64,000 bases of DNA from Phycisphaerales bacterium (GTDB lineage: Bacteria; Planctomycetota; Phycisphaerae; Phycisphaerales; UBA1924), in contig DASPKU010000019.1 of assembly GCA_035627955.1 (NCBI GenBank), positions 186,001 to 250,000 on the forward strand, read 5' to 3'. A program made the translations under genes and the position numbers. Shown here in pieces: positions 22,776 through 56,248 of the stretch. The stretch's first letter is position 1; every line of letters begins with the position of its first letter. The notes under the pieces were generated by a model. The model saw nothing but the letters and a program-made list of their open reading frames with translations, did no database searches and was not told the DNA's origin.

Positions 22776-23309
22776 ATGTCGAAGCTGAGCGTGTGGGCGG
22801 TGTTGGTGGCGGTGGTGATGATGAGCTTCACCCTGGGCGGGTGCTCGACGCCGACGCTGAAGGTGGCGAACGTGACCTTCACCCCCGAGCAGAGCCTGCG
22901 GGACCCCAACGGCAAGCTGCCGCTGGTGGAGGTGGCGGTGATCGGCGTGAGCGAGAACGACGCGCGGGAGTGGAACGAGTACAAGGTTGACTCGTTCTTC
23001 GCGGGGAACGACCCCCGGCGTGCGGCGGCCAAGCCCTTCACCAAGGACCTGGTGTTCACCAACGACGACGCGGCGGCGAAGACCATCGCGGCCAACGACC
23101 CGATCTGGCAGGTGTGGAAGGAGCGGGGGGCGACCCGCCTGTTCATCTTCGCCAACAGCAAGAACCTCCGCTCGGGGGAGGGCGGGCTGGAGCTGCGGCG
23201 GAAGGAGCTGCCCTTCACGAGCGACCGCTGGAAGACCAACCAGATCGATATCGCCGTGACGAGCGGGGGCATCGACGTGCGGACAAAGATGGAGCCGCTG
23301 AAGAAGTGA
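22776..23309 (+). CDS. Lipoprotein, candidate TssJ of the T6SS membrane complex
   Basis: A 177-aa protein with AAGGAAG before the ATG. The signal peptide is of lipoprotein type: the lipobox LGGC places the lipidated Cys at residue 23. The mature part has alternating beta strands (LPLVEVAVIGVSEND, RLFIFANSKNL) with one helix-like region between, and ends in a short basic tail. TssJ is an outer-membrane lipoprotein of about this length with a transthyretin-like fold that binds the TssM periplasmic domain. No specific TssJ sequence motif can be claimed, so the call rests on length, lipobox, beta content and position in a locus that otherwise lacks tssJ. +2 is Ser, which favours outer-membrane sorting under the enterobacterial rule. 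Confidence 0.55.
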   Translation: MSKLSVWAVLVAVVMMSFTLGGCSTPTLKVANVTFTPEQSLRDPNGKLPLVEVAVIGVSENDAREWNEYKVDSFFAGNDPRRAAAKPFTKDLVFTNDDAAAKTIAANDPIWQVWKERGATRLFIFANSKNLRSGEGGLELRRKELPFTSDRWKTNQIDIAVTSGGIDVRTKMEPLKK

Positions 23310-23472: not shown

Positions 23473-26400
23473 ATGCCAACGTACGGGGCGTTTGAGACGG
23501 TCGAGGAGCTGGCATCGGCGGGTCCGTTCGCGGTGTACGCCGCGCGGAAGGCGGGGCAGACAGGGGCGCCCGCGTACGCGGTGAAGGTGTACAAGACGGC
23601 GGACGTGTTCGCCGACGCCGAGGTAGTGGAGCGGGAGAGCGCGGCGTTTCTGGAGGCGGCGGAGGTGCAGCGGTCGCTGCCGGCGGGGCCCGCGGGCGGG
23701 GGCGGCGCGGGGCATTGGGCCCCGGTGCACGATGCGGGGCGGGCGAGCGACGCGGTGTACTACGTCACCGACCTCTACCCGGTGAGCGTGCAGCGGATGG
23801 TGGACAGCCGGCGGGAGCTGGATGCGCGGTCGATCGCGCACGTGATCGAGGGCGTGGTCGCGGGGCTCGAGGAGCTCGAGAAGACGCACAAGCGTGGTCA
23901 CGGCGGGCTGCAGGCGAGCAACGTGCTGCTGGGGTCGGTGGAGGTGGAAGAGGCGGCGATCGCGCTGACGGACCCGGAGGCCGGCTCGCGACTTGAGGCC
24001 AACGCGCCGGTGCAGGACCAGCGGGGGATGGCGGCGCTGCTGTACCAGATGGTCGTGCACCGGATGCCGCCGCGGGCGGGGGCGGTGGCGGGCGGGCCCG
24101 AGTGGCAGCGGATGGGAGCGGCGGGAGAACTGCTGCGGGGACTGTGCGAGACGCTGCTGAACGTGCAGGCGGGGCAGCTGGTGCCGCTGGAGCAGGTGCG
24201 GGCGAAGCTGGCGGAGGTCTTGAAGGCGAAGCCGCCGGCGAAGGCCGGGATGTCGGTGGGAGCGAAGCTGGGGATCGCGGCGGCGGTGCTGCTGGCGGTG
24301 GGCGGCGGGGTGTTCGTCGCGATGCGCGAGCCGCCGAAGGTGGAGATCGTGTACGAGGACGCCCGCAGGGCGTGGACGCCAGGGGATGTGGGGAGCCTCG
24401 ATACGCGGCTGGCGAAAGTGCGGAAGCTGATCAAGGACGACCCGGTGGACGCGGAGGAGGCGGGGAAGCTGGCGGCCCAGCTGAAGGAGCTGAGCGAGTC
24501 GATCGCGTGGCTGAAGAACCAGCCGCCGCCCGCCAGCGAGGAGCAGAGCGCGTTCATCAAGAGCGAGATCGCAAACCGCGACGAGCGGTACACGAAGGCG
24601 ACAGCGGCGCTCGTGAGCCTGGAGGAGCGGTGGTTTGAGGACCAGGCCGACCCGACGCAGGACCCGCGGAAGCCCAGCCCGGACCGGTGGCTGGCGGCAT
24701 GGATGAGCGAGATCGCCGAGCACGTGACGGTGGCGGACCGGCTGCTGAGCTCGGACGCGGCGGTGCGGGCGGAGTTTGAGCAGCTGCGGACCGACGCCGA
24801 GGCGCTCAAGAAGCTGGTGGAGGAGACGCGGGGGAAAGCGTGGGGGACGGAACCGGCGGCGCAGGCGGAGATTGTCAAGATCGCGGGCGAGGCGAAGGCG
24901 TCGGCGTTGGCCCTACGGCCGAAGCTGAAAGCGGTGCGTGTGGGGGCGCGGGATCAGCTGATCGAGTATGTAAAGAAGGCGGGCGACGGGGCCGCGTCGC
25001 TGCGGTCGGCGCAGCTGCAGGACCGCATGACGGCGTCGCTGCGGAAGCTGCGTGAGGACCTGGAGGAGAGCGAGACGCGCGGGTGGCAGGAAGTCACCGG
25101 GCAGGTCGCGAAGCTGGATGAGCTGCTGAAGTCTATCGACGGGGCGTTCGCGGCGACGCTGGGGCTGGAGGCGCCCGCGGCGGGCTCGGAGGTGGTGTAC
25201 GCGGGGGCGGAGAAGCACCTTGTTGATCTGCGCGAGTCGCTGATTTCCAAGCTGCCCGAGGCGACAGACGCGGCGGACGCAGGGCTGCGGGCGAAGGTGG
25301 AGCAGGCGGCGGGGACCTACAACGCGCGGGTGGCGGATCTGCGCGCGATGTACACCGCGGCACAGAAGGTCGAGACGCTGCTGGCCGCGGGGTATGGGCT
25401 GGATGAGAGCGTGGAAGGGGCTTCGATCGCGGCGCTCGATGCTGCGGTGCGGGGAGCACAGGGCTTCGAGCCGCTGAAGGCGGGCCTGGACAAGGTGCTG
25501 GCGCGGGTCGATGCCCTCAAGGAGGTAAAGGCGATGAGCAGCGCGCCGGCGCTGGTGGGCGTGATCAACGACGCTGGGAGCGGACTGTCGAGCGTGCTGA
25601 CGGCGTGGCGGGCGCTCCGGGCGACGGGTTACCCCGCGAGCGCGTCGGACCTGAGCGCGGCCATTGATGTGCAGGCGAAGGTTGTGGCGGCGGTGCGGAA
25701 GAGCGCGGGGGCACGGGCGGCCGGACTCACCTCCGAGGTCGAGGGACAGCTGCGTGCCCTGTGGCTGAGGTTCATCGAGAACGCCAAGGGCGACGTGCCG
25801 CAGGTGAACGCGGCCTTCGAGCTCACGACGCGGGTGCCGGGCGGGGCCGAGGCCATCGCCGGCGGGCCTGCGTGGCTGAAGTACAACCGCGAGAGGTGGG
25901 AGCTGCTCAAGGCCGTCGAGGGCGTCGGCGAAGCACCGGCGAAGGAGCAGATCGAGCAGCTGCACACGCCCGTGATGGCCTTCGTGAACGACGCCAAGGG
26001 CCTCAACCTGAACAGGCCGGAGGTGGCGCAGTTCGACAAGGACCTCAACCCCTTCGTGATCAAGAAGGTCGTCACGATGGACGAGATGGGGCCGGGCAGG
26101 GTGAAGTGGGCGTTTGAGGAGGACAAGGCGCGGGGCCTGGTGCGCTACCGGTGGACGGGCAAGCGCGGCGAGCACGTGCTGGAGTTCCGGCCCATGGTGA
26201 TGGGCGAGGACCAGGTCACGTACCTGTGCACGACCGAGATGCCGGTGGGGCTGTTCATCGACGCCGTGGAGGCGTTCGGGAAGTGGGATGATGTGCGGGG
26301 CGTGGGCGGTCAGGGCAAGAAGCTGCTGGACGGCAGCAACCTCGAGACCCGCGCGGGCGTGCGGACCGTGCGGTGGGTGGGCAGCGGCGACAAGATGAAG

Positions 26401-27228
26401 ATGGACAAGAGCGTGCCGGCCAACACGCAGCCGCACGACAAGAACGGCATGGGCTGGCACGCGACGAACATGGCAGACACGATGGCGCGGAACCCGTACT
26501 ACCCCGAGGGCGGTGGCCCGGGCCGGCCGCCGAGCGATCTGGATCCCGTGGACTGGGTGTCGCCGGAGGCGAGCCTGTACGTGGCGCGGGTGCTGGGGTG
26601 CCGGCTGCCGAGCTCGGCGGAGTGGAAGGCCGCGGCCGCGACGGGCGCGAACGCGACGCCCAACCTGCGCGATGAGTCCTACGCGCGGCAGTACCAGCAC
26701 GTCGCGGACAACATCGGCGACGACAAGTTCCAGGCCAAGAACATCATGAATTACCCGGGCAGCGGGATCATGGTGCTGCAGAACGGCGCGCCGGTCGCGG
26801 CGGAGCTGGACGGCTCGGCACTAACGGTGAACGACGGGTACCTGTACTTCGCGCCGGTGAACGAGCGGAGGCAAGGTGCGGAGGAGCCGAAGTTCCATCA
26901 CCTGATCGGGAATGTGTGGGAGTTCACGCACGAAGCGCCGCTGGCGGCGGAGGCGCTGCCGCAGGCGACGTACGACTCGGTGATGGGGCTGATGGGGCAG
27001 GGCTACGCGAACATGCGGGTGATCGGCGGGTCGGCGCTGTCGAATCCGCAGGTGGGCACGACCGAGCCGCAGGAGTTCAAGCGGACCACGGCCCGGCAGG
27101 GCTGGGCGGACGTGGGCTTCCGCTTGGCGTTCTCCACCGGCGCGGGCGCGGGGGGCGGGGGCTCGCCCAAGCAGCGGCTGCTGGGGATGCTGCAGAAGAC
27201 GCCGTACCTGTCGGCGGGGGCGAACTGA
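23473..27228 (+). CDS. Pseudokinase - TM - stalk - FGE/SUMF1-like membrane protein of the T6SS locus
   Basis: A 1251-aa protein. Residues 1 to about 235 look like a protein kinase fold with broken catalysis. The AVK lysine is present (K38), but the HRD motif reads HGGLQASNVLL (143-153), with Gly in place of the catalytic Asp, and DFG reads DPE (167-169). One membrane helix lies at about 262-282 (GAKLGIAAAVLLAVGGGVFVAM). A helical stalk of about 600 residues follows. From about residue 910 there is an FGE/SUMF1-like domain: TTEMPVGLFIDAV, VLGCRLPSSAEWKA, LIGNVWEFTH, VIGGSALS and ADVGFRLAFS. The catalytic Cys pair of true FGE is not seen near the end. The likely topology is kinase-like domain in the cytosol and FGE domain in the periplasm. 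Kinase plus FGE recalls the PpkA regulators of T6SS, but here kinase activity is doubtful. The region after the membrane helix is paralogous to that of the TagF fusion at 35556. Confidence 0.75.
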   Translation: MPTYGAFETVEELASAGPFAVYAARKAGQTGAPAYAVKVYKTADVFADAEVVERESAAFLEAAEVQRSLPAGPAGGGGAGHWAPVHDAGRASDAVYYVTDLYPVSVQRMVDSRRELDARSIAHVIEGVVAGLEELEKTHKRGHGGLQASNVLLGSVEVEEAAIALTDPEAGSRLEANAPVQDQRGMAALLYQMVVHRMPPRAGAVAGGPEWQRMGAAGELLRGLCETLLNVQAGQLVPLEQVRAKLAEVLKAKPPAKAGMSVGAKLGIAAAVLLAVGGGVFVAMREPPKVEIVYEDARRAWTPGDVGSLDTRLAKVRKLIKDDPVDAEEAGKLAAQLKELSESIAWLKNQPPPASEEQSAFIKSEIANRDERYTKATAALVSLEERWFEDQADPTQDPRKPSPDRWLAAWMSEIAEHVTVADRLLSSDAAVRAEFEQLRTDAEALKKLVEETRGKAWGTEPAAQAEIVKIAGEAKASALALRPKLKAVRVGARDQLIEYVKKAGDGAASLRSAQLQDRMTASLRKLREDLEESETRGWQEVTGQVAKLDELLKSIDGAFAATLGLEAPAAGSEVVYAGAEKHLVDLRESLISKLPEATDAADAGLRAKVEQAAGTYNARVADLRAMYTAAQKVETLLAAGYGLDESVEGASIAALDAAVRGAQGFEPLKAGLDKVLARVDALKEVKAMSSAPALVGVINDAGSGLSSVLTAWRALRATGYPASASDLSAAIDVQAKVVAAVRKSAGARAAGLTSEVEGQLRALWLRFIENAKGDVPQVNAAFELTTRVPGGAEAIAGGPAWLKYNRERWELLKAVEGVGEAPAKEQIEQLHTPVMAFVNDAKGLNLNRPEVAQFDKDLNPFVIKKVVTMDEMGPGRVKWAFEEDKARGLVRYRWTGKRGEHVLEFRPMVMGEDQVTYLCTTEMPVGLFIDAVEAFGKWDDVRGVGGQGKKLLDGSNLETRAGVRTVRWVGSGDKMKMDKSVPANTQPHDKNGMGWHATNMADTMARNPYYPEGGGPGRPPSDLDPVDWVSPEASLYVARVLGCRLPSSAEWKAAAATGANATPNLRDESYARQYQHVADNIGDDKFQAKNIMNYPGSGIMVLQNGAPVAAELDGSALTVNDGYLYFAPVNERRQGAEEPKFHHLIGNVWEFTHEAPLAAEALPQATYDSVMGLMGQGYANMRVIGGSALSNPQVGTTEPQEFKRTTARQGWADVGFRLAFSTGAGAGGGGSPKQRLLGMLQKTPYLSAGAN

Positions 27229-27244
27229 GGTCTGGTGGGGGCGG

Positions 27245-27433
27245 TCACTCGCCGGGGACGAAGGCGGTCTGCACGTTGGGCTGCTGGAAGAGCGAGGCGC
27301 CGATGCCGTCGCTGGCAGTGACGTTGCCGGCCTGGTGGCGCTGGAAGGTGTAAACGCGCCCGCCCGAGGACGAGCAGCCGAGGCACACGAACAGGGCAGC
27401 GAATACGGAGGCGAGGGTGAGGATGCGACGCAT
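27245..27433 (-). CDS. Small lipoprotein, opposite strand within T6SS locus
   Basis: A 62-aa protein. The ATG at 27433 has GGAG upstream and starts a lipoprotein signal (MRRILTLASVFAALFVCLGC), with Cys at residue 20. The mature part is only about 43 residues (starts SSSGGRVYTFQRHQ) and matches no family I know. It is the only minus-strand gene between 20.7 and 64 kb. It lies tail-to-tail with the pseudokinase-FGE gene, 16 bp apart. It may be an independent envelope protein or a regulator of the surrounding system, and nothing in the sequence decides between these. Confidence 0.6.
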   Translation of the reverse strand: MRRILTLASVFAALFVCLGCSSSGGRVYTFQRHQAGNVTASDGIGASLFQQPNVQTAFVPGE

Positions 27434-27787
27434 GGGGGTCTCCGGAACGGCAACGCCGCACGCGCGTGTGCCGTGGGATGGATCGGAGACAACCAGGGGC
27501 GGATTGACGGTTGGTGTGCAAAGTCCGTCGGTTGGCGGGGGGCTGTCGGGGGTGGGTGGGGTGTGGGGGGTGTGGGGAAGGTGCGGGTTCGCGCAGGTTT
27601 GGCGCGGAAGTGGGGGGAAGGGGCAAACCCGGTCGTGGGGGGCGGTTGTGTCCAGAGGACGGCCCGATATCATGGGGCCCTCGTGACAGAGGCGTGAGCG
27701 CCGGTTTATCGGGTTGGGTGTTGCGGCGGGCGTTTGGGTTCGCTTTGGGATGTGCGTTGGGATTGGGTGCGCAAGGAGCGTGGGCGC
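27434..27787. other. 354-bp intergenic region: G-rich tract and divergent promoters
   Basis: It holds the upstream region of the small lipoprotein gene (minus) and of the gene at 27788 (plus). A very G-rich tract at 27537-27577 has six runs of three or more G separated by 1-5 nt and could form a G-quadruplex on the plus strand. No small gene is supported. Confidence 0.55.
27646..27673 (+). promoter_or_regulatory. Candidate promoter for the 27788-tssK-tssLM transcript
   Basis: TTGTGT (27646-27651), spacer 16 nt, TATCAT (27668-27673). This is a fair match to a sigma-70 promoter, placed 114 nt before the GTG at 27788. It would drive the unknown gene and the tssK, tssL and tssM genes that follow in the same direction. 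Confidence 0.4.
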
Positions 27788-28723
27788 GTGATCGAACCGA
27801 CCTCAGAGCGTGGCAAGCGGCTCAGCGCGTTATCGGCCCGTCTGCGGGTGCTGCACAGCGAGCTGGCGGATCAGGACAAGGAGCTGCGGTCCGAGCAGCT
27901 TCAGGATGAGGTGAAGAGGGCGATTTCGGGGTTGGCGCCCAATGAGCGGGAGCCGTTCCTGCTGGCGCTGATGGAGCAGTTCCCGAGCTTTACGGACGGG
28001 GCGCGGTCCGCACCGCCGCCGCCGCCGGTCGTGGCCGCGGCGCCCGCGGCGGAGGTCAAGGACCCCAAGGTCTTGTGCGACAAGCTGATCGAGCACTCCC
28101 GCTTCCTGAGCGACGCGGACCGGGCGGCGATCACGCAGAAGCTGGCCGGTGCGGGCTTCGCGGTGGTGCAGGTGAAGGAGGCGCCCGCAGGGGCGGGGGG
28201 GCTGCCCGCGGCGCAGCTGGCGGAGTTCAAGAAGACCCTGCAGATGTCGCCGGAGCAGGAGGTCAGCGCGGCCCGGGTGGTTGAGACCGCGTCGGTGCTG
28301 GCGGAGTTCGTGCTGAAGCTGGAGCCGTGGGCGTGCACGTACTGGCGCGACCTGGCGCCCGACGCCAAGAACTCGGTGTTCCAGGTGCTGAACAAGGAAC
28401 TGCCCAAGTTCGTGGCGGGGGACGAGAAGGTGACCAAGGAGGTCATCCACAAGAGCGCGTACCGGCTGCGGAGCCTGGTGTCGCTGCTGATGAAGGGTGT
28501 GATCGAGGCGGGGCGGCAGTTTGCACGCGACCACATGGCGAAGTACTCGCTGGACGCGATCAGGCAGGCGGCGCCGCGGGAGATGTTCAAGGCGGACGAG
28601 TACCGGTACTGGAAGCAGTACGAGCGGCTGATGGACGGCGTCGATGGGTCGAGCATCGAGCTGCGGATGAAGCAGGTGATCGCGAAGGATGTGGATGCGG
28701 GCCTGAGCCAGGTCATCCGCTAG
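27788..28723 (+). CDS. Unknown T6SS-associated cytosolic protein upstream of tssK
   Basis: A 311-aa protein. The GTG at 27788 has AAGGAG about 9 nt upstream; the frame continues further 5' with no support. The N-terminal 60 residues are helical and charged (GKRLSALSARLRVLHSELAD). A Pro/Ala-rich linker with a run of prolines lies near residue 80. A helical C-terminal domain follows, ending with RDHMAKYSLDAIRQ and YRYWKQYERLMDG. That ending is vaguely like the C-terminal domain of T6SS Fha/TagH proteins, which often ends with a Tyr-Trp-x-x-Tyr stretch, but no FHA domain is present, so this is weak. It has no signal peptide. It lies 47 bp before tssK and is likely cotranscribed with it. The role may be in assembly or baseplate contact. 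Confidence 0.6.
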   Translation: MIEPTSERGKRLSALSARLRVLHSELADQDKELRSEQLQDEVKRAISGLAPNEREPFLLALMEQFPSFTDGARSAPPPPPVVAAAPAAEVKDPKVLCDKLIEHSRFLSDADRAAITQKLAGAGFAVVQVKEAPAGAGGLPAAQLAEFKKTLQMSPEQEVSAARVVETASVLAEFVLKLEPWACTYWRDLAPDAKNSVFQVLNKELPKFVAGDEKVTKEVIHKSAYRLRSLVSLLMKGVIEAGRQFARDHMAKYSLDAIRQAAPREMFKADEYRYWKQYERLMDGVDGSSIELRMKQVIAKDVDAGLSQVIR

Positions 28724-28770
28724 TTGTTGTGGTTTGAGCACCTTTAGCACTGCGCAGGCAGGGGGCACGA

Positions 28771-30186
28771 ATGTCTCAGGTCGGACAAGTTCACTGGCAC
28801 GAGGGTCTGTTCCTCAAGCCGCACCACCTCCAGACGATGCAGCGGGACCTGGCGGAGGCCGGGATGCGGGAGCGGCGGCTCTCGATGGCGTTCCCCTACG
28901 GCGTGATCGACCTGCGGCTGTCGACCGATGCGCTGGAGAACATGCTGGTGCGGATCGACCGGCTGCGGGCGATCATGCCCAGTGGGCTGGAGATCGACCT
29001 GCCGGGGAACGCGGATATCCCGGCGCTGGACATCAAGCGGGTGTTCCAGGCGAGCAGCGGGGCGTTCACGGTGAGCCTGGCGGTGCCGCTGTGGCAGGCG
29101 GCGCGGGCGAACACGGTGGACCCCATCCCCGCGGGCGGGGCGGGCGGCGCAGCGCGCCGGGCGGTAGCGGAGGATGCGCGCGTCAAGCGGCTGTACCGCG
29201 TGTCGGAGATCACCCGCAGCGATGAGAACACCGGGGAGGCGGCGGAGCCGGTGATGGTGCGGCGGTACAACGCCCGCCTGGTGGTGGAGGGTGAGGACAC
29301 CAGCGACATGGAAGTGCTGCCGCTGCTGCGGATCGTGCACACGGCGGAGGAGAGCACGCTGCCGCGGCCTGATACGGGGTTCGTGCCGCCGTGCCTGGTG
29401 ATCAACGGCTCGCCGCTGCTGCGGAACACGCTGAGGGACCTGGGGGCGGCGGTGGAGGCCTCGCGGAAGGAGCTGGTGAATCAGCTGACGCGGGGCGGGT
29501 TCGTGGTGGAGAACCTGCGCGGGCCGCAGCTGCTGCAGATGCTGCGGCTGCAGGTCCTCAACAAGTACGCGGCCAGCCTGCCGGTGATGGTGCAGGGGGG
29601 CGTGGGCGGTGCGGGGGCGATGACGCCCTTCGCGGCGTACCTGACGCTGCGGGAGCTGCAGGGGGAGCTGGCGGCGCTGTCGCCGGACCGTGACCCCTTC
29701 GAGGCGCCCAAGTATGACCACGACAACCCCGGCCCGGTGTTCCAGGAGCTGGACCGCAAGATCCGGCCGCTGCTGCGCGGCGACATCCAGAAGAAGTTTC
29801 TGCAGAGCGCGTTCGTCAAGGACCAGGGCCTGCTGACCGCGACCCTGACCGACGAGCAGATCAGCCAGCCCAACGGGTACTACATCGGGATTAGGACGAA
29901 GGCGCCGGCGGCGGTGCTGGGGAAGCTGGTGGAGGACCAGGACCGGTTCAAGTTGATGCCCAAGAGCATGGCGAAGCTGCACCTGTTCGGCGTGAAGCTG
30001 GTGGAGGACCGCCACCCGCCGATGGAGCTGCCCAGCGCGGTGGACCTGCACTACTTCCGCGTGGACATGGGCGAGAGCAAGAAGATGTGGGACCGGATCG
30101 TCGCGGAGAAGGCCATGTGCGTGCGGTGGGCCGAGACGGACGACTTCGAGTACCAGGATGTTTCGATGTACATGACGGTGCCGTGA
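28771..30186 (+). CDS. tssK: T6SS baseplate protein TssK
   Basis: A 471-aa protein that opens VHWHEGLFLKPHHLQ, the TssK/ImpJ signature (usually VxWxEGMFLxPQHFQ). Family features later are the SGLEIDLP-type segment, LVINGSPLL, ELVNQLTRGGFV, the NQ/helix region and ISQPNGYYIGI near the C-terminus. TssK is a cytosolic baseplate component that links TssF/TssG/TssE wedges to the membrane proteins TssL and TssM. The length matches the family (about 440-470). AGGGGGC lies before the ATG. tssL follows after 151 bp containing a repeat element, so the tssK and tssLM messages may be separated or processed there. Confidence 0.93.
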   Translation: MSQVGQVHWHEGLFLKPHHLQTMQRDLAEAGMRERRLSMAFPYGVIDLRLSTDALENMLVRIDRLRAIMPSGLEIDLPGNADIPALDIKRVFQASSGAFTVSLAVPLWQAARANTVDPIPAGGAGGAARRAVAEDARVKRLYRVSEITRSDENTGEAAEPVMVRRYNARLVVEGEDTSDMEVLPLLRIVHTAEESTLPRPDTGFVPPCLVINGSPLLRNTLRDLGAAVEASRKELVNQLTRGGFVVENLRGPQLLQMLRLQVLNKYAASLPVMVQGGVGGAGAMTPFAAYLTLRELQGELAALSPDRDPFEAPKYDHDNPGPVFQELDRKIRPLLRGDIQKKFLQSAFVKDQGLLTATLTDEQISQPNGYYIGIRTKAPAAVLGKLVEDQDRFKLMPKSMAKLHLFGVKLVEDRHPPMELPSAVDLHYFRVDMGESKKMWDRIVAEKAMCVRWAETDDFEYQDVSMYMTVP

Positions 30187-30194
30187 GGCACTGG

Positions 30195-30322
30195 GGCAAG
30201 TGGCAGAGTGGCCAAGTGGCAAAGTGGCAGAGTGGCAAAGTGAGGTGAGTTGGGTGCGGGATGGAGAGGTCGCGGTGCGTTTCAGCACTTTGCCACTTCG
30301 CCACTTTGCCACTTAGCCACTT
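30195..30322. repeat. Inverted repeat made of short AGTGGCAAAGTGG-type units, copy 2
   Basis: The left side (30195-30243) is a chain of AAGTGGCAGAGTGGCCAAGT-type units. The right side (30284-30322) holds CACTTTGCCACTTCGCCAC and on. The two sides are reverse complements around about 40 nt. It is the same family as 11563-11677 and sits inside the T6SS locus, between tssK and tssL. Confidence 0.7.
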
Positions 30323-30337
30323 CCGCCGGAGCGAGCG

Positions 30338-31030
30338 ATGAACCTTGTCGAGATATGTGAGCCCCTGTTCCAGTACGTATGCCGGCTCAACCGGCTGGCG
30401 CGCAAGGGCGGGCGGGCGGACTTTGGCGTGGTGCGCGGTGAGGTCAAGGGCCTGCTGGCGGAGATGCGCGCGAAGGCGGAGCAGACCCCGGCGATGATCG
30501 GCGCGTACAACCAGATCGAGCTGGTGCTGATCTTCTTCGTCGACTCGATGATCCTCAACAGCAACCTCGGCGGGGGGTGGAAGCCCCTGAGCGGCGAGCG
30601 GGGCGAGCTCGCCTTTGAGGAGAAGTTCTGGGATCTGCTGGAGGACGCGCTGCGCGACCCCAGCGACACGGCGACGCAGCGGCTGGCGGTGTTCTACGTG
30701 TGCATCGGCCTGGGCTTCACCGGCCTGTACACGGGGCAGCCCGATTACATCCGGCGGAAGATGCTGGAGATCTCGGCGCGCCTGCGGGGGATGATCGACG
30801 CCAACCAGGCGGCGCGGATCTGCAACGACGCGTACGACGGGGTCGACACGCGGAACCTGACGCAGCCGCCCAACCGGAGCCTGACGGGCGTGGTGATCGC
30901 GCTGGTGGCGCTGACGGTGGTGCTGCTGGTGGCGTACGTGCAGCTGTTCCGATACGCGGGGCAGCAGCTGGACGCGTCGTTCACGAACATTCAGAAGAGC
31001 CACAACGAGAGCGGCAAGCCGTCGGCCTGA
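30338..31030 (+). CDS. tssL: T6SS membrane complex protein TssL (DotU/IcmH family)
   Basis: A 230-aa protein. The DotU core is visible: LVEICEPLFQYVCRL at the start, AYNQIELVLIFFVDSMIL in the middle, FWDLLEDALRDPSD and a Tyr-rich LGFTGLYTGQ segment (usual family text is L-G-F-x-G-x-Y). One C-terminal membrane helix at about residues 185-207 (GVVIALVALTVVLLVAYVQLF) and a short periplasmic tail complete it. It lacks the OmpA-like peptidoglycan-binding extension found in some TssL. It forms the inner-membrane complex with TssM and contacts TssK. The start follows GGAGCGAGCG. tssM begins 22 bp downstream, so the two are an operon. Confidence 0.92.
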   Translation: MNLVEICEPLFQYVCRLNRLARKGGRADFGVVRGEVKGLLAEMRAKAEQTPAMIGAYNQIELVLIFFVDSMILNSNLGGGWKPLSGERGELAFEEKFWDLLEDALRDPSDTATQRLAVFYVCIGLGFTGLYTGQPDYIRRKMLEISARLRGMIDANQAARICNDAYDGVDTRNLTQPPNRSLTGVVIALVALTVVLLVAYVQLFRYAGQQLDASFTNIQKSHNESGKPSA

Positions 31031-31051
31031 GCGGCGGAAGAGAGGTTTTAC

Positions 31052-34000
31052 ATGTTTTCGGCATTCGCGAATCTTCCGCGTCCAATGCAGGGCGCGACGA
31101 TCCTGGGCGTGGGCGTGGGCGGGCTGGCCGCGGTCATGGCCGTGCTCAAGGACAACCCGTTCTGGAAGTGGCTGGCGATCGGCATCCTGGCGGTCGCGGT
31201 CATCATCGTGCTGTACATCCTGGTCCTGAAGCTCAAGGACAAGGCCAAGAGCGGGCCCTTCGCGTCCTTGATCGCCAAGGCGGGGAGCGGGCGGGGTGCG
31301 GTTGATCCGGCGGCCAAGGCCCGCATGGACGACCTGCGGAAGAAGTTCGAGGAGGGCGTGAGCACCTTCAAGAGTGCGGGCAAGGACCTGTACAGCCTGC
31401 CGTGGTTCCTGCTGGTGGGGCCTTCGGGCAGCGGCAAGACGGAGGCAATGCGTCACTGCAACGTCGGCTTCCCGCCGGGGCTGCAGGACTGCCTGCAGGG
31501 GACGGGCGGCACGATGAACATGCACTGGTGGTTCACCAACCACGCGGTGGTGCTCGATACCGCGGGCCGCATGTTCATGGAGGAGGGCACCGACGGGCAG
31601 GCGACGGAGTGGAAGGAGTTCATGAAGCTCCTGAAGCAGTGCCGGCCCAACGCCCCGATCAACGGCATGCTGCTGGTGATCAGCGCCGAGAGCCTGCTCA
31701 AGGACAGCGCGGAGAAGATCGAGCAGACCGCGGGCGCCATCGCGCGACAGCTGGACGTGGTGCAGCGGACGCTCGAGGTGCGCTTCCCGGTGTTCGTCGT
31801 GGTGACCAAGTGCGACAAGATCGTGGGCTTCCGCGACTTCTTCGAGACCATCAACGACCCCAACCTGCAGCACCAGATCCTGGGCTGGAGCAACCCGGCG
31901 CCCTTGGACGACGCGTTCAAGCCCGATCAGGTCGACAAGCACCTCGACGGCGTGCGGCAGAAGCTGCTGTCGCGCCGGATGGGCCTGCTGCAGAACCCGA
32001 TCCACACCATGGACCCCTCGGCCCGGCGCACGGACCAGGTCGACGAGATGTTCGAGCTGCCGGACAACCTCGTGCGCATCGCGCCGCGTCTGCGCCGCTA
32101 CCTCGAGATGATCTTCGTCGCGGGCGAGTGGAGCCCCAAGCCGCTGTTCCTCCGCGGCATCTACTTCACGAGCTCGATGCGCGAGGGCCAGGCCCTGGAT
32201 GTGGGCCTCGCGGAGGCGCTGGGCATCGATGTCGAGTCCATTCCCGGCGGCAAGGAGTGGGACAAGGACAAGGCCTACTTCCTGCGCGACGTGTTCATGA
32301 GCAAGGTGTTCAAGGAGCGCGGGCTGGTCACGCGGGCCGCGAACGTGAGCAAGGCGCTCGCGAAGCAGCGGCGGATGGTGGTGGGGCTGTCCGCGGCGGC
32401 GGTGATCGTCCTGGCGGGCGTCGCGGCGATGGGCTACTTCGGGTTCAAGGGCTCGCTGGACCGGCCGAGCCGGTTCTGGTCGACGGTGAACGCGGCGTAC
32501 GCGGGGATCGAGGAGGGCGAGAACGAGTTCGACGCGCTCGAGGTGCGGCTCATCGACCCCAAGACCCTGGCGTACCGCGGCAACGTGCAGTTCGAGAAGG
32601 TGCCGGGTGACGCGAACTTCCGCACGCCGCTGGAGCTGGTGCTGGCCTCGGCCAAGCAGCGCAAAGACGAGATCAAGCCGCCCTTCATCGCGGCCCCGGT
32701 GGTGGGGTTCAAGAGCGAGTGGACGGAGAAGCAGGTCAACGCGCACCGGGCGATCGTCGAGCGGGCCATCGTGGTGCCGCTGGTGAACGCGACGCGAAGC
32801 AAGCTGCAGACGGAGACGGCGTGGGGCGACGCGGCCGTGGGGTCGCTGGCGCAGCTGATGCGGCTGCAGACGTACGCGCTCGGCGCGGCCCCCGCGGCGA
32901 CGGACGCCAAGAAGCCGGTCGCGATCAACGTGGATGTGATGTTCCGCTACCTGCTGGGCGAGGACGACCAGCGGGTGTACGAGTCCTCGCGCAGCGACAT
33001 CGCCGAGGCGGTCGCGCTCGCGTACCCGGAGGGCTGGAATAGCAAGAACCTGCCGGCGGAGGTGCTGGGCGGGAAGGACGAGTGGTCGATCCGCACGGTC
33101 GAAGGCGCGGTGGACAGCCTCGTTAAGCATCTGGAGCAGCTGGGCAAGGACCGGCCGGACAGCCGGATGGCGTCGCTGATCAAGCTGCGCGACGGGCTGC
33201 TGACGATCGCGGGCGAGCACGCGAACGTGCAGGGGATGGAGGCGATCAAGACGGCCGAAGGGCTGCCGCAGACGCTGCGGCAGTACGAGAGCTTCGAGAC
33301 ACAGTTCCTGGCGAGCGCGGACAAGATCCTCAAGGGGCGGGCGGACATCGACCTGGCGGTCAAGAAGCTGGGCGACAAGGAGGTCTCGGTGCTGGTGACC
33401 GAGGCGGGCGACGAGCTGCAGAAGCAGCTGACCGCTTACTTCAACGACCTGCAGGGTCAGCTGCCGACCATCCCCGAGGATGAGAAGGCGGCGGAGAAGA
33501 TCGACCGCAGCCTGGTGAGCCTGCGCGGGAAGCTCGAGGAGAGCGCGCGGCGCGTGGACGCCACGGTGAAGCAGCAGCTGACGGCGATGTCGGCCGCGAT
33601 GGAGAACGTGAAGTGGCTGCTGACCCCCGGGTCGATCATCGACCGCGGCGATATGCGGGCGTACGGCGCGATCGCCAAGGCGTACGAGTTCGGGGCTCGG
33701 GAGCTGCGCGCTGCGGACGCCCAGGCGAGCAAGGCGGCGGAGCCGAGCGATACCGGGGAGGCCAGGCCGACGCTGGTGGCGCAGATCGCGGAGGTGAATG
33801 AGAATGCGAAGAAGGTGCGGGGCGACGTGGACGCCCTGACGGGCTGGTCGCCCGAGCCGGGGCGCGTGGCGCCGCAGGCGCTGACCGCCATGCGCGACCA
33901 GACGGTGGCGGCCCTGCGGACGGTGACGACCATCGCGGCGTCGCGCCGGGTGCACGAGCTGGTGAAGGTTGCGATCGGCGAGTGGCGGGGCGATGCCGAC

Positions 34001-35503
34001 GGGCTGCGGGCGCACGTAGAGGACGTGGCGAACGCGCGCCTGGCCGAGGGCACGTTCGACGCGCGGAAGCTCAAGCGTCCGCGGCTGCCGCTGACGGCGA
34101 TGGAGCGGCCCAGCGAGTTCGCCAAGCCGTACCACTGGGAGGCCGCGGGCCAGGTGCTGAAGGACTGGGCCGAGGTGCGGGCGTTCGTCGAGGGCACGGA
34201 CAAGAAGGTGGTGCTCGGTCGTGACGAGCTGCGGAACGACCCCAAGGTGAACTACACGGCCAAGGCGAACGCCACTGTGGAGTACATGCGCGACTACATC
34301 GCGTACTGGCGGAAGCAGGCCAATGAGGAGTGCCGCCCGGCTGCGAGCAGCTGGATGGCCTACGGCCAGACGCTGAAGGCGACGAACTTCGACAAGCTGT
34401 GCGAAGACCTGGAGGCGCTGGAGAAGATCGTGCGCGAGGCGTTCAAGGTGGCGCCCGCGGATATGGCCAAGGACGCGCTCGCGGAAACCGACGGCGCGTA
34501 CGCGAAGCTGGCGGACGCCAAGTTCCTGCGGCGTGCGAAGGCGGTGGTGGCCCTGTGGGGCACGCTGTCGGAGAACGACGCGGACGGGGCGCGGCGCGAG
34601 CTGCTCAGCGCAATGCGCGAGGGGCGGATCGGGGATGAGTACTTCGGCGTGTACTCGGCGGACGGGCTGCGGTTCGTCAACGAGCTCATCCACGCGGGGC
34701 TGAGCTGCCTGGTGAAGGAGACGCGTCGCGACCTCGAGAGCGCGATGGACCGGCTGATGACCGACGCCAAGGCGGTGCCGCTGGCGTTCGTGCCGTCGTG
34801 CGACCCTGTCCGTACCAAGCCGCTGACGGCGGCGCAGGTGAAGGACATCCTGGGCGCGGCGGACAAGCTCGAGCAGGCCGCGGGCAGCGACCGCGGCGCG
34901 AGCACCGCGGCCATCCCGGAGGAGCTGCGTCCGCTGATGAAGTCACTGACGGGCGGGGACATCATGCCCGCGGGCAGCGCGGTGTGGTTCGCCAATCTGA
35001 AGGCGATGGCGGGGCTGTTCAGCCAGCAGAAGGAGCTGAGCTTTACCGTGACGTTCTCGCCGGTGAACAAACTGCCGGCGCGGTCGGGCGTGACCGACGA
35101 CGCCCGGGGCAACCTGTACGGCTACGCCAAGCTGGTGGTGGGCGGGCAGGCGGCGGGAGAGGTGTTCAGCCTCACGATTCCCTCGCTGCCGGAGAAGCTG
35201 AAGGAGCGGAGCGTGAAGCTGCCGCTGGTCGATGGTCAGGCGACCGAGCTGTGGCTGTACGCGAGCGAGCCGCAGGGGAACCAGGAGCCGGCGGAGAAGA
35301 TCATCCTGCCTGGCAACTGGAGCCTGCTGCAGCAGATGATGAGCGCGTGCGGCGAGGCGGAGCAGGACGACAAGGACCCGCAGAGCTGGCGCGTGATGGT
35401 GACGACCAAGGACAACAAGTACCTGTGGCTGCACCTGACGTTCAACCAGAAGCTGCCGGCAAAGGACGCCTGGCCGAGCACGGACCGTTGGCCGGCGCGG
35501 TGA
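31052..35503 (+). CDS. tssM: T6SS membrane complex protein TssM (IcmF family)
   Basis: A 1483-aa protein, somewhat longer than typical TssM (about 1100-1300). Two N-terminal membrane segments are seen, about 13-31 and 38-61. A cytoplasmic GTPase-like domain follows with an intact Walker A, GPSGSGKT at 123-130, the conserved HWWFTNHAVVLDTAGR segment, and VVVTKCDKI, which fits an NKxD-like base motif (TKCD). A third membrane helix lies at about 441-463 (VVGLSAAAVIVLAGVAAMGYF). The remaining 1000 residues would be periplasmic and mainly helical, ending in a beta-rich domain. TssM spans the inner membrane and reaches the outer-membrane lipoprotein. Its 5' neighbour is tssL. The TagF-FGE gene follows about 50 bp later. 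Confidence 0.93.
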   Translation: MFSAFANLPRPMQGATILGVGVGGLAAVMAVLKDNPFWKWLAIGILAVAVIIVLYILVLKLKDKAKSGPFASLIAKAGSGRGAVDPAAKARMDDLRKKFEEGVSTFKSAGKDLYSLPWFLLVGPSGSGKTEAMRHCNVGFPPGLQDCLQGTGGTMNMHWWFTNHAVVLDTAGRMFMEEGTDGQATEWKEFMKLLKQCRPNAPINGMLLVISAESLLKDSAEKIEQTAGAIARQLDVVQRTLEVRFPVFVVVTKCDKIVGFRDFFETINDPNLQHQILGWSNPAPLDDAFKPDQVDKHLDGVRQKLLSRRMGLLQNPIHTMDPSARRTDQVDEMFELPDNLVRIAPRLRRYLEMIFVAGEWSPKPLFLRGIYFTSSMREGQALDVGLAEALGIDVESIPGGKEWDKDKAYFLRDVFMSKVFKERGLVTRAANVSKALAKQRRMVVGLSAAAVIVLAGVAAMGYFGFKGSLDRPSRFWSTVNAAYAGIEEGENEFDALEVRLIDPKTLAYRGNVQFEKVPGDANFRTPLELVLASAKQRKDEIKPPFIAAPVVGFKSEWTEKQVNAHRAIVERAIVVPLVNATRSKLQTETAWGDAAVGSLAQLMRLQTYALGAAPAATDAKKPVAINVDVMFRYLLGEDDQRVYESSRSDIAEAVALAYPEGWNSKNLPAEVLGGKDEWSIRTVEGAVDSLVKHLEQLGKDRPDSRMASLIKLRDGLLTIAGEHANVQGMEAIKTAEGLPQTLRQYESFETQFLASADKILKGRADIDLAVKKLGDKEVSVLVTEAGDELQKQLTAYFNDLQGQLPTIPEDEKAAEKIDRSLVSLRGKLEESARRVDATVKQQLTAMSAAMENVKWLLTPGSIIDRGDMRAYGAIAKAYEFGARELRAADAQASKAAEPSDTGEARPTLVAQIAEVNENAKKVRGDVDALTGWSPEPGRVAPQALTAMRDQTVAALRTVTTIAASRRVHELVKVAIGEWRGDADGLRAHVEDVANARLAEGTFDARKLKRPRLPLTAMERPSEFAKPYHWEAAGQVLKDWAEVRAFVEGTDKKVVLGRDELRNDPKVNYTAKANATVEYMRDYIAYWRKQANEECRPAASSWMAYGQTLKATNFDKLCEDLEALEKIVREAFKVAPADMAKDALAETDGAYAKLADAKFLRRAKAVVALWGTLSENDADGARRELLSAMREGRIGDEYFGVYSADGLRFVNELIHAGLSCLVKETRRDLESAMDRLMTDAKAVPLAFVPSCDPVRTKPLTAAQVKDILGAADKLEQAAGSDRGASTAAIPEELRPLMKSLTGGDIMPAGSAVWFANLKAMAGLFSQQKELSFTVTFSPVNKLPARSGVTDDARGNLYGYAKLVVGGQAAGEVFSLTIPSLPEKLKERSVKLPLVDGQATELWLYASEPQGNQEPAEKIILPGNWSLLQQMMSACGEAEQDDKDPQSWRVMVTTKDNKYLWLHLTFNQKLPAKDAWPSTDRWPAR

Positions 35504-35555
35504 GTTCCGGAAGGCGTGAGGGGGAGTGGCCGCGCGTGGAAGGAAGGACTCTGGC

Positions 35556-38500
35556 TTGAAGAACGGAACTCGACACAGCGGCCGGCCGGTGAAGGTGCAC
35601 GTTGCGGCCTTCGGGAAGCACCCGGGGTGGGACGACCACATCGAGGAGATCGGTCTGGACTGCCCGCAGCTGGTGAAGGCCAAGCGGGTGCTCTATACCG
35701 AGTGCATCGGCGGGAACATCGACTCGGGCGAGTGGGAGAAGCTGGAAGAGGGCAAGCGAATCCCCTTCCGGCACGAGTTTGTGTGGAGCCTGCCCGACGG
35801 GGTGATGGTCGGCCGGCTTTGGGCGAGCCGCGACGGCAAGGGGCGGACGAAATACCCGATGGTGGTGTGCGCGTTCCTGGAGAACGCGCCGCTGGACTGG
35901 GCCTGCGCGCAGGTGCTGCCGCGCCTGGCGCAGGTGGAGACGGACTGCACGCAGACGAACTCGGCGGAGTTGGTACGGTTCGCGGTGGGGGGCTGCCAGA
36001 GCGAGCTGGAGAAGGCCGCGGAGGCGTACAACGCGGCACCCGCGCCCGAGGAGGTGGTTGGAGACCTGGTCGCGCGCCTGGTGGGCACGCCCGAGCTGTC
36101 CGGCAACGGGCGCGAGGGCATGGTGCGCGTGCTGTACGAGATGGGGCGCGAGCTGCAGGAGTTCACGCGGACGTCATCTGGTACGACGATCAAGAGCAAG
36201 GATTATGAGCCCGCGTGCGCGCACCTGCGCGTGCCCCGGGGGCTGCGCGGCCCCGGCGAAGGGGCGCGGGCGTGGGTGAGGGTCATGGAGCAGGACATCC
36301 TCCAGGGCCTGCCCGTGATGGTGCTCTCGCCGGTGGCGGAGCGGTTCGTCGATGTGATCGTCGGCGAGCCGAAGGTGAAGGCGTTCTTCTGCGCCCGCGC
36401 GGGCGAGGGGGCGCTGGGGCTGACAACGGATGTGCCGTACACGATGGACGACGCCGAGGCCTCGCGGCATCGCCAGCGGGCGGAGTCGTGGGCGGGGGGT
36501 GGGGCGAGCAGCAGGAAGAGTGGCGGGGTGGTCGCGGCGGGCGGCGGGTTATCACGCGAGGCGCGCCTGAAGGTGGGGCTGCTGGCGCTCGCCGGTGTGC
36601 TGGTATTGGCGATCGTGATCGCGGTAGTGGCGCGGAAGAAAGGGACGCCGGCCGAGGCCGAGGCAGGGGAAGCGGCATCGAACTCCTCGGCGGCGCCCGA
36701 GCCCAGGCCGGAGGTGCGCGATGCGAGTGGGCCGAGCACGGCCGGTTCTGGAGCTACAACGTCGGCGACCGGGGATGGTGATCCTCGGAGTGCGTGGGGC
36801 GTTGCGGACGCGTTGTCGCGGGTGAAATTCGATCTCGATCGGCTGGACGCTGAACTGAAAGCGGACGGGAAGGTTCTGGATCCGTCGCACCGCGAGAAGC
36901 TGGCGGACGTCGAGCGACGCGTCGGGCTGGTGAAGGCGATGCCGTGGCGGGCCTCGTCGCGGGACCAGATCGCGCGGGATGTGCAGACGCTGGATGAGGA
37001 GCTGGCGGTGCTCGGCCGGGCTTTGAAAGCCGAGTCTGAGGGAGCAGCGGCGGGTTTGTCATCGGTGCTGCAGGAGCGGGCGCGGACGGCCCCTGTGAAG
37101 CACCGCGTGCTGGTCGCGGCGTGGGGGACGGGGATCGCCGCGCTGGACCCGAAGGCCGGGCGCGAGGTGGCGCTGGCCAAGGTCGCGGCGCTCGAGCAGA
37201 GCCTCAGCAGCGTCGAGCAGCAGCTGGGCGATGTGCAGGCGGTGGCGGCGCCCGAGGCGAAGCTCATTGATGGCGCCAAGTGGAGCAAGGCCGCGGAGGC
37301 GCGGCTGGAGCGTGGGCTGCGGGAGGCCGCGGACGCGGCGGTCGCGGGCAACGCGGGCAGGGTGGCGGGGGCGGTCGAACAGCTCAGGTCGTGGAACCAC
37401 GGCGCGGACGTTGTCGCGGCGAAGGCGGTGGCCCTGGAGCAGATGCTCGCCGCCGGCAAGGTGCTGAGTGCGGAGGCGAAGCCCACGGCCCGGGAGCTGG
37501 AAGCGGCGATGCAGGCCAGCCCAGCGTACACCGAGCTGGGGCCGGCGGTGCGGCCGCTGCTGGATCAGGTGGAGGCGGTGCGGTCGGTGGCGAGCCTGAC
37601 GAGCCACGAGGCGCTGATCTCGGCGGTGAAGGGCGCGGTGAACGACGGGACGCGGACGCCCGGAGCGGTGGCGGCGTGGTCGCGGTTGGCGGAGCTTGGG
37701 TGGCCGGGCATCCCGGCGGACATGCTGGAGGCATCTCGCCTGGCGACCTCGGATCTCGAGGCTGCGATCAACGGTGTGGCCGACGCGGGGCAGCGGGCGG
37801 CGCTGAAAGCGCAGGCCGCGGGAGCCACGCGGGCGATGTGGACGGGTTTTGTGGGCAAGGCCGCGATGAACGAGGCCGGGGCGGAGGCGGCGTACTCGAC
37901 GATGGGTGTACTGGGTATCGGCGACTCGGAGCTGGTCAAGCTGCCGGACTGGGCGCGGTACAACCTGCTGCTGGCGCAGTTCCGTGCCGCTGCGGTGGGC
38001 AAGGGGGAGGGGGCGACGCTGGACGGAGCCACGCGGGAGAGCGTGGCTCGGTTCGTGGCGGGCGTGGAGGCACTCGGCGCGACGACGCAGCAGCGGCCGG
38101 AGATCGACGCCTTGCTGAAAGGGCTGCGGCCGCTGAAGGATCCGGGCGCGGGGCTGGAGTTCTCGAAGCTGGGGCCGGGCGTGCTGGGGTGGACGGCCGG
38201 TGCGCCCGATGCCGAGGGTGGCGTGACGTACACGATGAAGGGCTCGGAGAGGTCGGTGCACTTCCGGCGGCTGCCGGTCACGCCTTCGAGCGGGGGCGAG
38301 AGCGTCGCGTTCATGAGCACGACCGAAGTGTCGGTCGGGATGTTCATCGAGGTGGTGAAGAGCGTTGGCAAGTGGGACGACATCAAGCCGCTGCTGGCGA
38401 CCTACCCCGCGACCGGTGACACACGGCGCGGCGTGCGGGTGTGGGAGTGGTCCAGCAGCGCGGGCGAAGTGATGCGGGTGATCAAGCCCGGCAAGGACGA

Positions 38501-39242
38501 CTTCAGCAGGGGGTGGCTGCGGCCAAAGGCCTCGATGGCGGGCAAGGAGTTCTACGCGTCGGGCGTAACGGTGGGCGCCCCGACGGCGGACATGCCCATG
38601 CAGTACGTGTCGCCCATGGCGGCCGTGGTGTTCGCACGAGTGATGGGCTGCCGCCTGCCCACGCCCGAGGAGTGGAAGGCCGTGGCTCCCGCGGAGGGAA
38701 CGCCCAATCTGCGCGACGGCACATGGGCGAAGCAGTACGAGCAGACGAAGACGCTGGTGGGTCAGGATGAGGTCAAGCGTGACCCCCCGGACTTCCCCGG
38801 TGCAGGGGCGTTCTGGCCGGCTGGCGTGACCAAGCCTCAGCCGCAGGCGGATGGGGCCGCCGCGGTGGAAGCGGACGATGGCGTGCTGTGGTTCGCGCCG
38901 GTGGGGTCGGGCCGGCAGTTCCAGCACCTGGTGGGCAACGTGTCGGAGTACGTGTGGGGGGACCCGGAGGGGATGGGGTCGCTGGAGGCGTCGCCGCTGA
39001 AGGTGCGGACCTACCTGGGCGAGAAGAACGCGATGGGGGTCATCGGCGGGTCGGCCCTGTCGTCGAAAGAGGTGCCGGTACGGGAGGCGTCGCCGGTGAA
39101 CCTGATGCAGGCGCGGGAGGGGTACGCGGATGTGGGCTTCCGACTGGCATTTTCTGCGCCCCGCGGCGCCGGGAGCGCGGCGGGGCCCTCGCTGTCGTCG
39201 CTGTTGAAGTCGGCGGCGTACATGGCGCCGGAGAAGCGATGA
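35556..39242 (+). CDS. TagF-like domain - TM - stalk - FGE/SUMF1-like fusion protein
   Basis: A 1228-aa protein. The start is taken as TTG at 35556 because AGGAAGGA lies 7 nt upstream; a GTG at 35526 in the same frame adds ten residues but has no properly spaced ribosome site. The first 200 residues resemble the TagF N-terminal domain: VAAFGKHPGWDDHIEEIG, then VWSLPDGVMVGRLW and GRTKYPMVVCAF. A membrane helix lies at about 337-360 (VGLLALAGVLVLAIVIAVVA). A helical stalk of about 550 residues follows and then an FGE/SUMF1-like domain (TTEVSVGMFIEVV, VMGCRLPTPEEWKA, LVGNVSEYVWG, VIGGSALS, ADVGFRLAFS). No catalytic Cys pair is seen. TagF normally is a small soluble post-translational repressor of T6SS, so this membrane fusion is unusual. 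Stalk and FGE match the protein at 23473. Confidence 0.72.
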   Translation: MKNGTRHSGRPVKVHVAAFGKHPGWDDHIEEIGLDCPQLVKAKRVLYTECIGGNIDSGEWEKLEEGKRIPFRHEFVWSLPDGVMVGRLWASRDGKGRTKYPMVVCAFLENAPLDWACAQVLPRLAQVETDCTQTNSAELVRFAVGGCQSELEKAAEAYNAAPAPEEVVGDLVARLVGTPELSGNGREGMVRVLYEMGRELQEFTRTSSGTTIKSKDYEPACAHLRVPRGLRGPGEGARAWVRVMEQDILQGLPVMVLSPVAERFVDVIVGEPKVKAFFCARAGEGALGLTTDVPYTMDDAEASRHRQRAESWAGGGASSRKSGGVVAAGGGLSREARLKVGLLALAGVLVLAIVIAVVARKKGTPAEAEAGEAASNSSAAPEPRPEVRDASGPSTAGSGATTSATGDGDPRSAWGVADALSRVKFDLDRLDAELKADGKVLDPSHREKLADVERRVGLVKAMPWRASSRDQIARDVQTLDEELAVLGRALKAESEGAAAGLSSVLQERARTAPVKHRVLVAAWGTGIAALDPKAGREVALAKVAALEQSLSSVEQQLGDVQAVAAPEAKLIDGAKWSKAAEARLERGLREAADAAVAGNAGRVAGAVEQLRSWNHGADVVAAKAVALEQMLAAGKVLSAEAKPTARELEAAMQASPAYTELGPAVRPLLDQVEAVRSVASLTSHEALISAVKGAVNDGTRTPGAVAAWSRLAELGWPGIPADMLEASRLATSDLEAAINGVADAGQRAALKAQAAGATRAMWTGFVGKAAMNEAGAEAAYSTMGVLGIGDSELVKLPDWARYNLLLAQFRAAAVGKGEGATLDGATRESVARFVAGVEALGATTQQRPEIDALLKGLRPLKDPGAGLEFSKLGPGVLGWTAGAPDAEGGVTYTMKGSERSVHFRRLPVTPSSGGESVAFMSTTEVSVGMFIEVVKSVGKWDDIKPLLATYPATGDTRRGVRVWEWSSSAGEVMRVIKPGKDDFSRGWLRPKASMAGKEFYASGVTVGAPTADMPMQYVSPMAAVVFARVMGCRLPTPEEWKAVAPAEGTPNLRDGTWAKQYEQTKTLVGQDEVKRDPPDFPGAGAFWPAGVTKPQPQADGAAAVEADDGVLWFAPVGSGRQFQHLVGNVSEYVWGDPEGMGSLEASPLKVRTYLGEKNAMGVIGGSALSSKEVPVREASPVNLMQAREGYADVGFRLAFSAPRGAGSAAGPSLSSLLKSAAYMAPEKR

Positions 39243-39330: not shown

Positions 39331-39451
39331 TGCCCCCATTGAGGCGATTGTTGCCGCCGGCGGTCATGGTGCGCTGTGAGTGGAGGCGTACGGATCGCCG
39401 GTTCAAGTGCTGGGGGTCGGCCCTTTGGGCCCGGTCAGAAAAGGAAGAACG

Positions 39452-41575: not shown

Positions 41576-41688
41576 GTCCCTGGGTGGTGTTATCGGGCGT
41601 AAGTGGGGGCGAGTTCAGGACTTGTGGTGTTTGCAATCGCTGGTTATCGGAGCGTGCTCCGGGGCCGGCGCGATACGAGGGGTTCGTC

Positions 41689-53444: not shown

Positions 53445-53492
53445 ACGCCCGCAGTTTGCGGAGAAGAGTGTCAGAGAAGCAAGGAGACAGGG

Positions 53493-53990: not shown

Positions 53991-54003
53991 GTGTGAAGAA
54001 GTG

Positions 54004-54031
54004 ACGGGCCGGCGACCTGCCGGCCCGTTTC
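54004..54031 (+). terminator. Hairpin with short T-tract between tssB and tssC
   Basis: ACGGGCCGGC (54004-54013) and GCCGGCCCGT (54019-54028), a perfect 10-bp stem with a 5-nt loop, followed by TTCG. It may act as a partial terminator or as an RNA processing or stability element that sets the TssB to TssC ratio. Confidence 0.5.
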
Positions 54032-54100
54032 GGTGAAAAGACGTTTCAGAGCAAGACCCCGGGCCGTCTACGGATGGTGCCCGGCGCGGAGGGATGGCAG

Positions 54101-55594: not shown

Positions 55595-55644
55595 TTCTCT
55601 CGCGTCTCACAGCCGCCACAACGGCAAACCAGGAGTGACTAGGC

Positions 55645-56148: not shown

Positions 56149-56188
56149 TCCAGACGCCTGTTCTGGGCTTCGCATCGATCCATCACGG

Positions 56189-56220
56189 CGCAGGGGCGGG
56201 CACGCCCCTGCGGCCGTTTT
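56189..56220 (+). terminator. Intrinsic terminator between hcp1 and hcp2
   Basis: CGCAGGGGCG (56189-56198) and CGCCCCTGCG (56203-56212), a perfect 10-bp stem with a 4-nt loop, followed by GCCGTTTT. It would make hcp1 the most abundant of the three, as expected for the main tube subunit. Confidence 0.6.
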
Positions 56221-56248
56221 CTGAAGGCCACGCACCCGAGAGCCGCCA

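Follow-up and report, generated by a model that had tools for sequence, protein, structure and literature searches.

Pseudokinase-headed and TagF-headed membrane proteins share a stalk-FGE body at a planctomycete type VI secretion locus

Introduction

TagF and PpkA are known as the cytoplasmic brake and the membrane kinase of the type VI secretion system (T6SS) of Proteobacteria. What would a bacterium control with both kinds of head mounted on one receptor body? The question arises from a 64,000-nucleotide stretch of DNA of a Phycisphaerales bacterium (contig DASPKU010000019.1, positions 186,001 to 250,000; the whole stretch is called the window here), in which two genes of a T6SS locus encode proteins with a common outer part and different N-terminal heads. 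Protein A, encoded from position 23473, has a kinase-like head, and protein B, encoded from 35556, has a TagF-fold head. The original prediction, made from this sequence, was that a duplicated sensor body had been joined to an activator-type and a repressor-type head, and that the two proteins may pair through their stalks or FGE domains to gate T6SS firing. Here we propose that A and B may be phosphorylation-free envelope receptors that act on the TssL-TssM complex and not on tail firing alone, a proposal that we regard as evenly balanced between right and wrong.

Results

The open reading frames, Pfam matches and hydropathy of A and B agree with the predicted architecture, in which an N-terminal domain is followed by one transmembrane (TM) segment, a helical stalk and a C-terminal FGE domain, and the motifs quoted in support of it are all present in the translations. 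The reading frame of B is open from 35526, and the TTG start at 35556 has GGAAGG before it. We found that the bodies of the two proteins are 32% identical over 634 columns (E 3e-65), and that within the window's genome the body of A matches the body of B only, and vice versa. The stalks (616 residues in A, 541 in B, and from 120 to more than 900 among relatives) also matched as profiles (hhalign 100%, E 1.4e-51, 528 columns), whereas reversed and column-shuffled control profiles gave E 0.007 or worse. In the AlphaFold2 (AF2) model of the stalk plus FGE domain of B (mean predicted local distance difference test score [pLDDT] 86.6), the stalk is a long helical rod. Its comparison with known folds returned weak helical matches that are not meaningful (EzrA Z 9.5, root-mean-square deviation [rmsd] 12.6), and its match to the periplasmic region of TssM was no better than those of reversed controls. 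Because the head side of the TM segment is more positively charged than the far side in most relatives, the heads are probably cytoplasmic and the stalk and FGE domain periplasmic (N-in/C-out).

The C-terminal domains of both proteins matched Pfam FGE-sulfatase, and that of B adopts the FGE fold (VIA Z 14.8 against the solved FGE 5nyy), with PorK among the nearest solved structures (VIA Z 13.9). The residue equivalent to Cys336 (human FGE numbering) is never Cys in 37 such domains (Ser in 34, and Gly, Ala and Thr), and only 1 of the 37 has a Cys in the following 20 columns, the Cys341 region. It is therefore unlikely, judging by these residues, that the FGE domains of A and B make formylglycine. 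In Pseudomonas, the annotation of TagR1 (PA0071) gives it an FGE-sulfatase domain, and the protein activates PpkA, probably through the periplasmic domain of PpkA (PMC6082577; PMC6657622). By analogy, the simplest reading would be that a TagR-like sensor has been fused to each head.

We identified the head of B as TagF by structure comparison and NCBIfam. Pfam TagF_N did not match it at E up to 1 (the genome's sole match lies elsewhere, E 0.3), and searching PDB sequences with a profile gave no significant identification. The AF2 model of the head (pLDDT 92.6) had TagF as all of its top Foldseek matches (9t0n, E 3e-8) and aligned by VIA with 9t0n (Z 16.6, 271 residues, rmsd 4.2), 2qnu (Z 13.7) and 6iz8 (Z 13.6); the nearest non-TagF structure was a longin domain (Z 7.7). 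With its cut-off not applied, the TagF model TIGR03373 matched 18 of 31 relatives (best 9e-5) and B itself at 0.059. The predicted structure thus has the TagF fold, and the head carries the FGK.P..D motif, as TagF does. With homologous C-terminal regions in A and B and a TagF-like head in B, neither of the outcomes named beforehand as refuting the original prediction occurred. We found no TagF-TM-FGE fusion in the open-access literature searched. Reading frames of 1434-1435 residues in other planctomycete families (G206 and G235) were rejected as fusions, because TagF_N, close to the C-terminus, was their sole match and no FGE domain was seen in them.

The head of A matched the profile of bacterial StkP (E 3.7e-10), and Pfam Pkinase was matched by 3 of 12 relatives (best 1.1e-6). 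Among 12 aligned A-type heads, the DFG Asp is invariant and the beta3 Lys is gone in four, but the catalytic HRD Asp is absent from every one (Asn in five, Ala in two, Arg in two, and Gly, Glu and Met). In contrast, HRD is present in L116, a planctomycete kinase encoded close to a canonical TagF. Since the Asp is replaced in all 12 heads, the pseudokinase state is, on these alignments, a trait of the whole family and not of one genome.

Other parts of the threonine phosphorylation pathway were also sought. The gene that follows A encodes a putative Fha C-terminal-domain-like (Fha-C-like) protein. Its match to that domain is weak yet specific: PF20232 was hit by 7 of 21 relatives (best 6.5e-4), and hhalign paired the family with planctomycete Fha C-domains (88%, E 2.9e-6), against E 0.2 for a reversed control. 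Across loci this gene lies directly 5' of TssK or TssL. We looked for an FHA domain in the protein and obtained no match, and of the four FHA-domain genes in the window's genome none is on the window's contig. PP2C_2 (PF13672) had no match in the genome, other PP2C families not having been searched genome-wide. Since the kinase is dead, PP2C_2 is unmatched and the putative Fha partner is FHA-less, the pathway looks dismantled, and if the Fha-C-like assignment is right, the phosphopeptide-binding domain would have been lost together with the kinase. Repression by TagF in Agrobacterium and Pseudomonas involves binding to Fha and does not depend on phosphorylation (PMC5995506), and so a kinase-free TagF/Fha switch is mechanistically possible. 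The prediction of an activator-type head therefore survives in part: the kinase-like fold and its pseudokinase state are borne out, and the idea of an activator kinase is weakened, because the catalytic Asp is absent from 12 of 12 heads and the other pathway parts are missing or FHA-less.

We next consider how the two proteins are distributed in a comparison set of 61 related genomes. TagF heads occur in 22 of them and strong pseudokinase matches (E below 1e-35; the next matches lie near 1e-14) in 19, all within the 22. The two architectures thus occur together across genomes, as the check proposed with the original prediction asked, in 19 of 22 with TagF versus 0 of 39 others (Fisher p 5e-13, kinship ignored). 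The three TagF genomes that have no such match are G005, where the contig ends inside the upstream FGE protein, G027, where the contig is 6 kb long, and G011, which is divergent. The conserved gene order is A, Fha-C-like, (TssK), TssL, TssM, TagF(-FGE), TpsB and TpsA. In G019 (L053, G019:C42), the genes for a pseudokinase-FGE protein and a TagF-FGE protein are divergent neighbours on their own: we found no counterpart of the window's T6SS genes within about 20 kb of them, and the TagF encoded at that genome's T6SS locus is a stand-alone one.

Some of these genomes appear to have lost the contractile tail. Genome-wide, TssC and TssK are absent from exactly the same six of the 22 TagF genomes (G006, G011, G018, G024, G029 and G035), some of which are drafts and one of which, G035, is a single contig; both genes are present in the other 16. 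In five of the six, long open frames remain for pseudokinase-FGE, Fha-C-like, TssL, TssM, TagF (whether or not it is fused), TpsB and TpsA, and no TssK lies between the Fha-C-like gene and TssL. The TssM frame of G024 is shorter (885 residues), and the module of G018 and G035 is divided between two locations or two contigs. The tail-less loci fall at three places on the TssM tree, in three lineages. A conventional firing gate, in which A promotes tail assembly, B represses it and the two pair through their stalks or FGE domains, would agree with the 16 genomes that have TssC and TssK and with the roles of TagF and PpkA in Proteobacteria. We nevertheless consider it unlikely, as the kinase is dead in all aligned heads and both proteins are kept in five genomes that lack TssC and TssK; for the latter reason, gating of firing is weakened as a sole function. 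The retention of A and B with the inner-membrane complex and a giant surface protein in tail-less species suggests control of something more basic than firing.

That surface protein raises a second alternative, that the module serves two-partner secretion (TPS), with TssL, TssM, TagF and pseudokinase-FGE controlling the export, anchoring or triggered release of giant TpsA through TpsB and the T6SS tail being optional. In most loci TpsB is the gene immediately 3' of TagF, a TPS domain is present in 25 loci, including all five that are tail-less, and the C-terminus of TpsA keeps its motifs across lineages, unlike a variable toxin tip. We judge this alternative rather unlikely, because type Vb secretion, to our knowledge, proceeds in known cases without need for an inner-membrane complex, because G010, G011 and G021 have TagF without an adjoining TpsB in the DNA examined, and because TpsBA, 137 bp from B, may have its own promoter. 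In the open-access literature searched we found no coupling of TssM to TPS, nor any case of TPS genes linked to TssL, TssM and TagF. Least probable of all is a structural role, in which the FGE-stalk proteins would belong to the envelope complex or anchor it, like GldK/PorK in type IX secretion, and the heads would merely dock them: PorK is indeed near the FGE domain and the modelled stalks are long helical rods, but two regulatory-type heads would be odd for a scaffold, and the length of the stalk varies severalfold.

The origin of the fusion is less simple than a single duplication of a sensor body, which our trees do not support. Roughly two thirds of the loci encode a fused TagF and the others a stand-alone one, and the two forms interleave in trees. 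A single clade of TagF bodies was rejected (approximately unbiased [AU] test, p 0.00018), as was a single clade of fused TagF heads (AU p 0.0017). TagF bodies and pseudokinase bodies of the window's group form one supported clade of ten (99/97), and the window's TagF body has pseudokinase bodies of its own subclade as its neighbours, although long branches make the details of the trees uncertain. Two histories would account for this: more than one joining of the body to TagF, or gene conversion between bodies together with repeated loss of the fusion.

Sheath, tube, baseplate and membrane core genes of the T6SS are present at the window's locus (Table 1).

Table 1. Features of the T6SS locus, in window positions
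Feature	Position	Strand	Remarks
Lipoprotein, lipobox LGGC	22776..23309	+	TssJ-like by position only; no Pfam match
Protein A: pseudokinase-TM-helical stalk-FGE, 1251 residues	23473..27228	+	
A, kinase-like head, residues 4-234	23482..24174	+	Profile matches; HRD Asp replaced (HGG), DFG Asp and beta3 Lys retained
A, TM segment, residues 266-284	24268..24324	+	Hydropathy, flanking charge
A, helical stalk, probably periplasmic	24325..26169	+	Homology to B stalk
A, FGE/SUMF1-like domain without catalytic Cys	26170..27210	+	Pfam E 5e-9
Putative Fha C-terminal-domain-like protein without FHA domain	27734..28723	+	PF20232 in relatives, hhalign
TssK	28771..30186	+	
TssL/DotU	30338..31030	+	
TssM/IcmF	31052..35503	+	
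Protein B: TagF-TM-helical stalk-FGE, 1228 residues from TTG at 35556	35556..39242	+	
B, TagF-fold head	35592..36458	+	AF2, Foldseek, VIA, TIGR03373
B, TM segment	36573..36629	+	Hydropathy, flanking charge
B, helical stalk, probably periplasmic	36630..38249	+	AF2 model of stalk and FGE
B, FGE/SUMF1-like domain without catalytic Cys	38250..39224	+	Pfam E 2e-10, VIA
TpsB, ShlB/FhaC-type outer-membrane transporter	39380..41575	+	ShlB (PF03865) E 1e-9
Giant TpsA exoprotein, 3577 residues, N-terminal TPS domain	41584..52317	+	PF05860 E 5e-24
Contractile tail/baseplate: TssA, TssB, TssC, three Hcp, ImpE/TagJ, TssE, TssF, TssG, ClpV-like	52377..63998	+	Continues beyond window

The TpsB-TpsA pair sits inside this locus (39380-52317), and the C-terminal 200 or so residues of TpsA contain recognisable motifs common to different lineages. 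A perfect palindrome, GCGTCAACTTGACGC, lies at 39293-39307 between B and TpsB; it is possibly an operator or the start of a separate TpsBA unit. The three Hcp genes are consecutive (55645-57193, starting at 55645, 56249 and 56753). Upstream lies the gene of a 675-residue protein with no Pfam match (20696-22723). Many relatives with a tail also have it ahead of pseudokinase-FGE; the tail-less loci examined yielded none. Genes of a branched-chain amino acid type ATP-binding cassette (ABC) transporter (15294-20637) lie immediately 5' of the T6SS locus. One record in our comparison, L032 (QWIH01000005.1, named Leptolyngbya sp. PLA1), has a locus nearly identical to that of Phycisphaerales SJ502 (L036) and is probably a mislabelled metagenome-assembled genome.

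Discussion

We propose that A and B form an inner-membrane receptor pair with a common outer part and different inner heads. By analogy with TagR and PpkA of Pseudomonas, the dead FGE domain on its long periplasmic stalk would receive an envelope signal, which the cytoplasmic heads would relay without phosphorylation. The TagF head may keep the TssL-TssM membrane complex off via the Fha-C-like protein, and the pseudokinase head may counteract TagF or scaffold it. The controlled object would be the envelope complex of TssL and TssM together with the adjoining TpsB-TpsA; it would dock the contractile tail in most genomes, the tail having been lost in some. More tentatively, the tail-less set of TssL, TssM, FHA-less Fha-like protein, TagF, pseudokinase-FGE and giant TpsA could be a contact-sensing or surface-export machine from which the T6SS tail is removable, a suggestion that we think doubtful.

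Several points weigh against our proposal. About ten relatives have a stand-alone TagF, and tethering is therefore not required. The co-occurrence statistic ignores phylogeny. The Fha-C-like assignment is a weak and putative one, covering a core of about 70 residues, and a pseudokinase call made from sequence is compatible with atypical activity or nucleotide binding. The genome-wide absences cover TssC and TssK only, in draft genomes that are 90-97% complete.

If envelope receptors of this kind exist, this lineage may reveal a brake and its antagonist working without phosphorylation, because the kinase is dead and the phosphorylation components are apparently missing. The apparent recurrence of TagF fusion to the receptor body suggests an advantage in a brake placed at the envelope. 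The tail-less loci are a natural experiment on the role of TssL, TssM and TagF when there is nothing to fire, and they allow one to ask whether the membrane complexes of T6SSs also serve another purpose, together with two-partner proteins exposed at the cell surface.

Comparison with known systems places A and B between several of them. The head of B resembles TagF of Pseudomonas, Agrobacterium (TagF-PppA) and Acinetobacter in its fold, its motif, its TssL/TssM neighbourhood and its putative Fha-like neighbour. It differs from them in escaping Pfam TagF_N and in being anchored by a TM segment to a stalk and FGE domain, whereas the known fusion, TagF-PppA, is predicted to be cytoplasmic (PMC5995506). 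Like PpkA with TagR in the Pseudomonas H1-T6SS, where TagR1 is itself an FGE-domain protein, A has an N-terminal kinase fold, one TM segment and a probable external input; unlike that pair, it has a dead kinase and a covalently attached FGE domain, in a genome with no PP2C_2 match and on a contig with no FHA gene. Chlamydia Pkn1 also has a kinase and an FGE domain fused in one chain; compared by description only, A differs from it in being T6SS-linked and transmembrane and in having a stalk. GldK/PorK likewise place an FGE-fold domain in an envelope secretion machine, but the type IX machine is a different one and they have no cytoplasmic head. Finally, TpsB and a TPS-domain TpsA adjoin one another here as in two-partner secretion (FhaC/FHA and CdiB/CdiA), but in this lineage they are linked to TssL, TssM and TagF.

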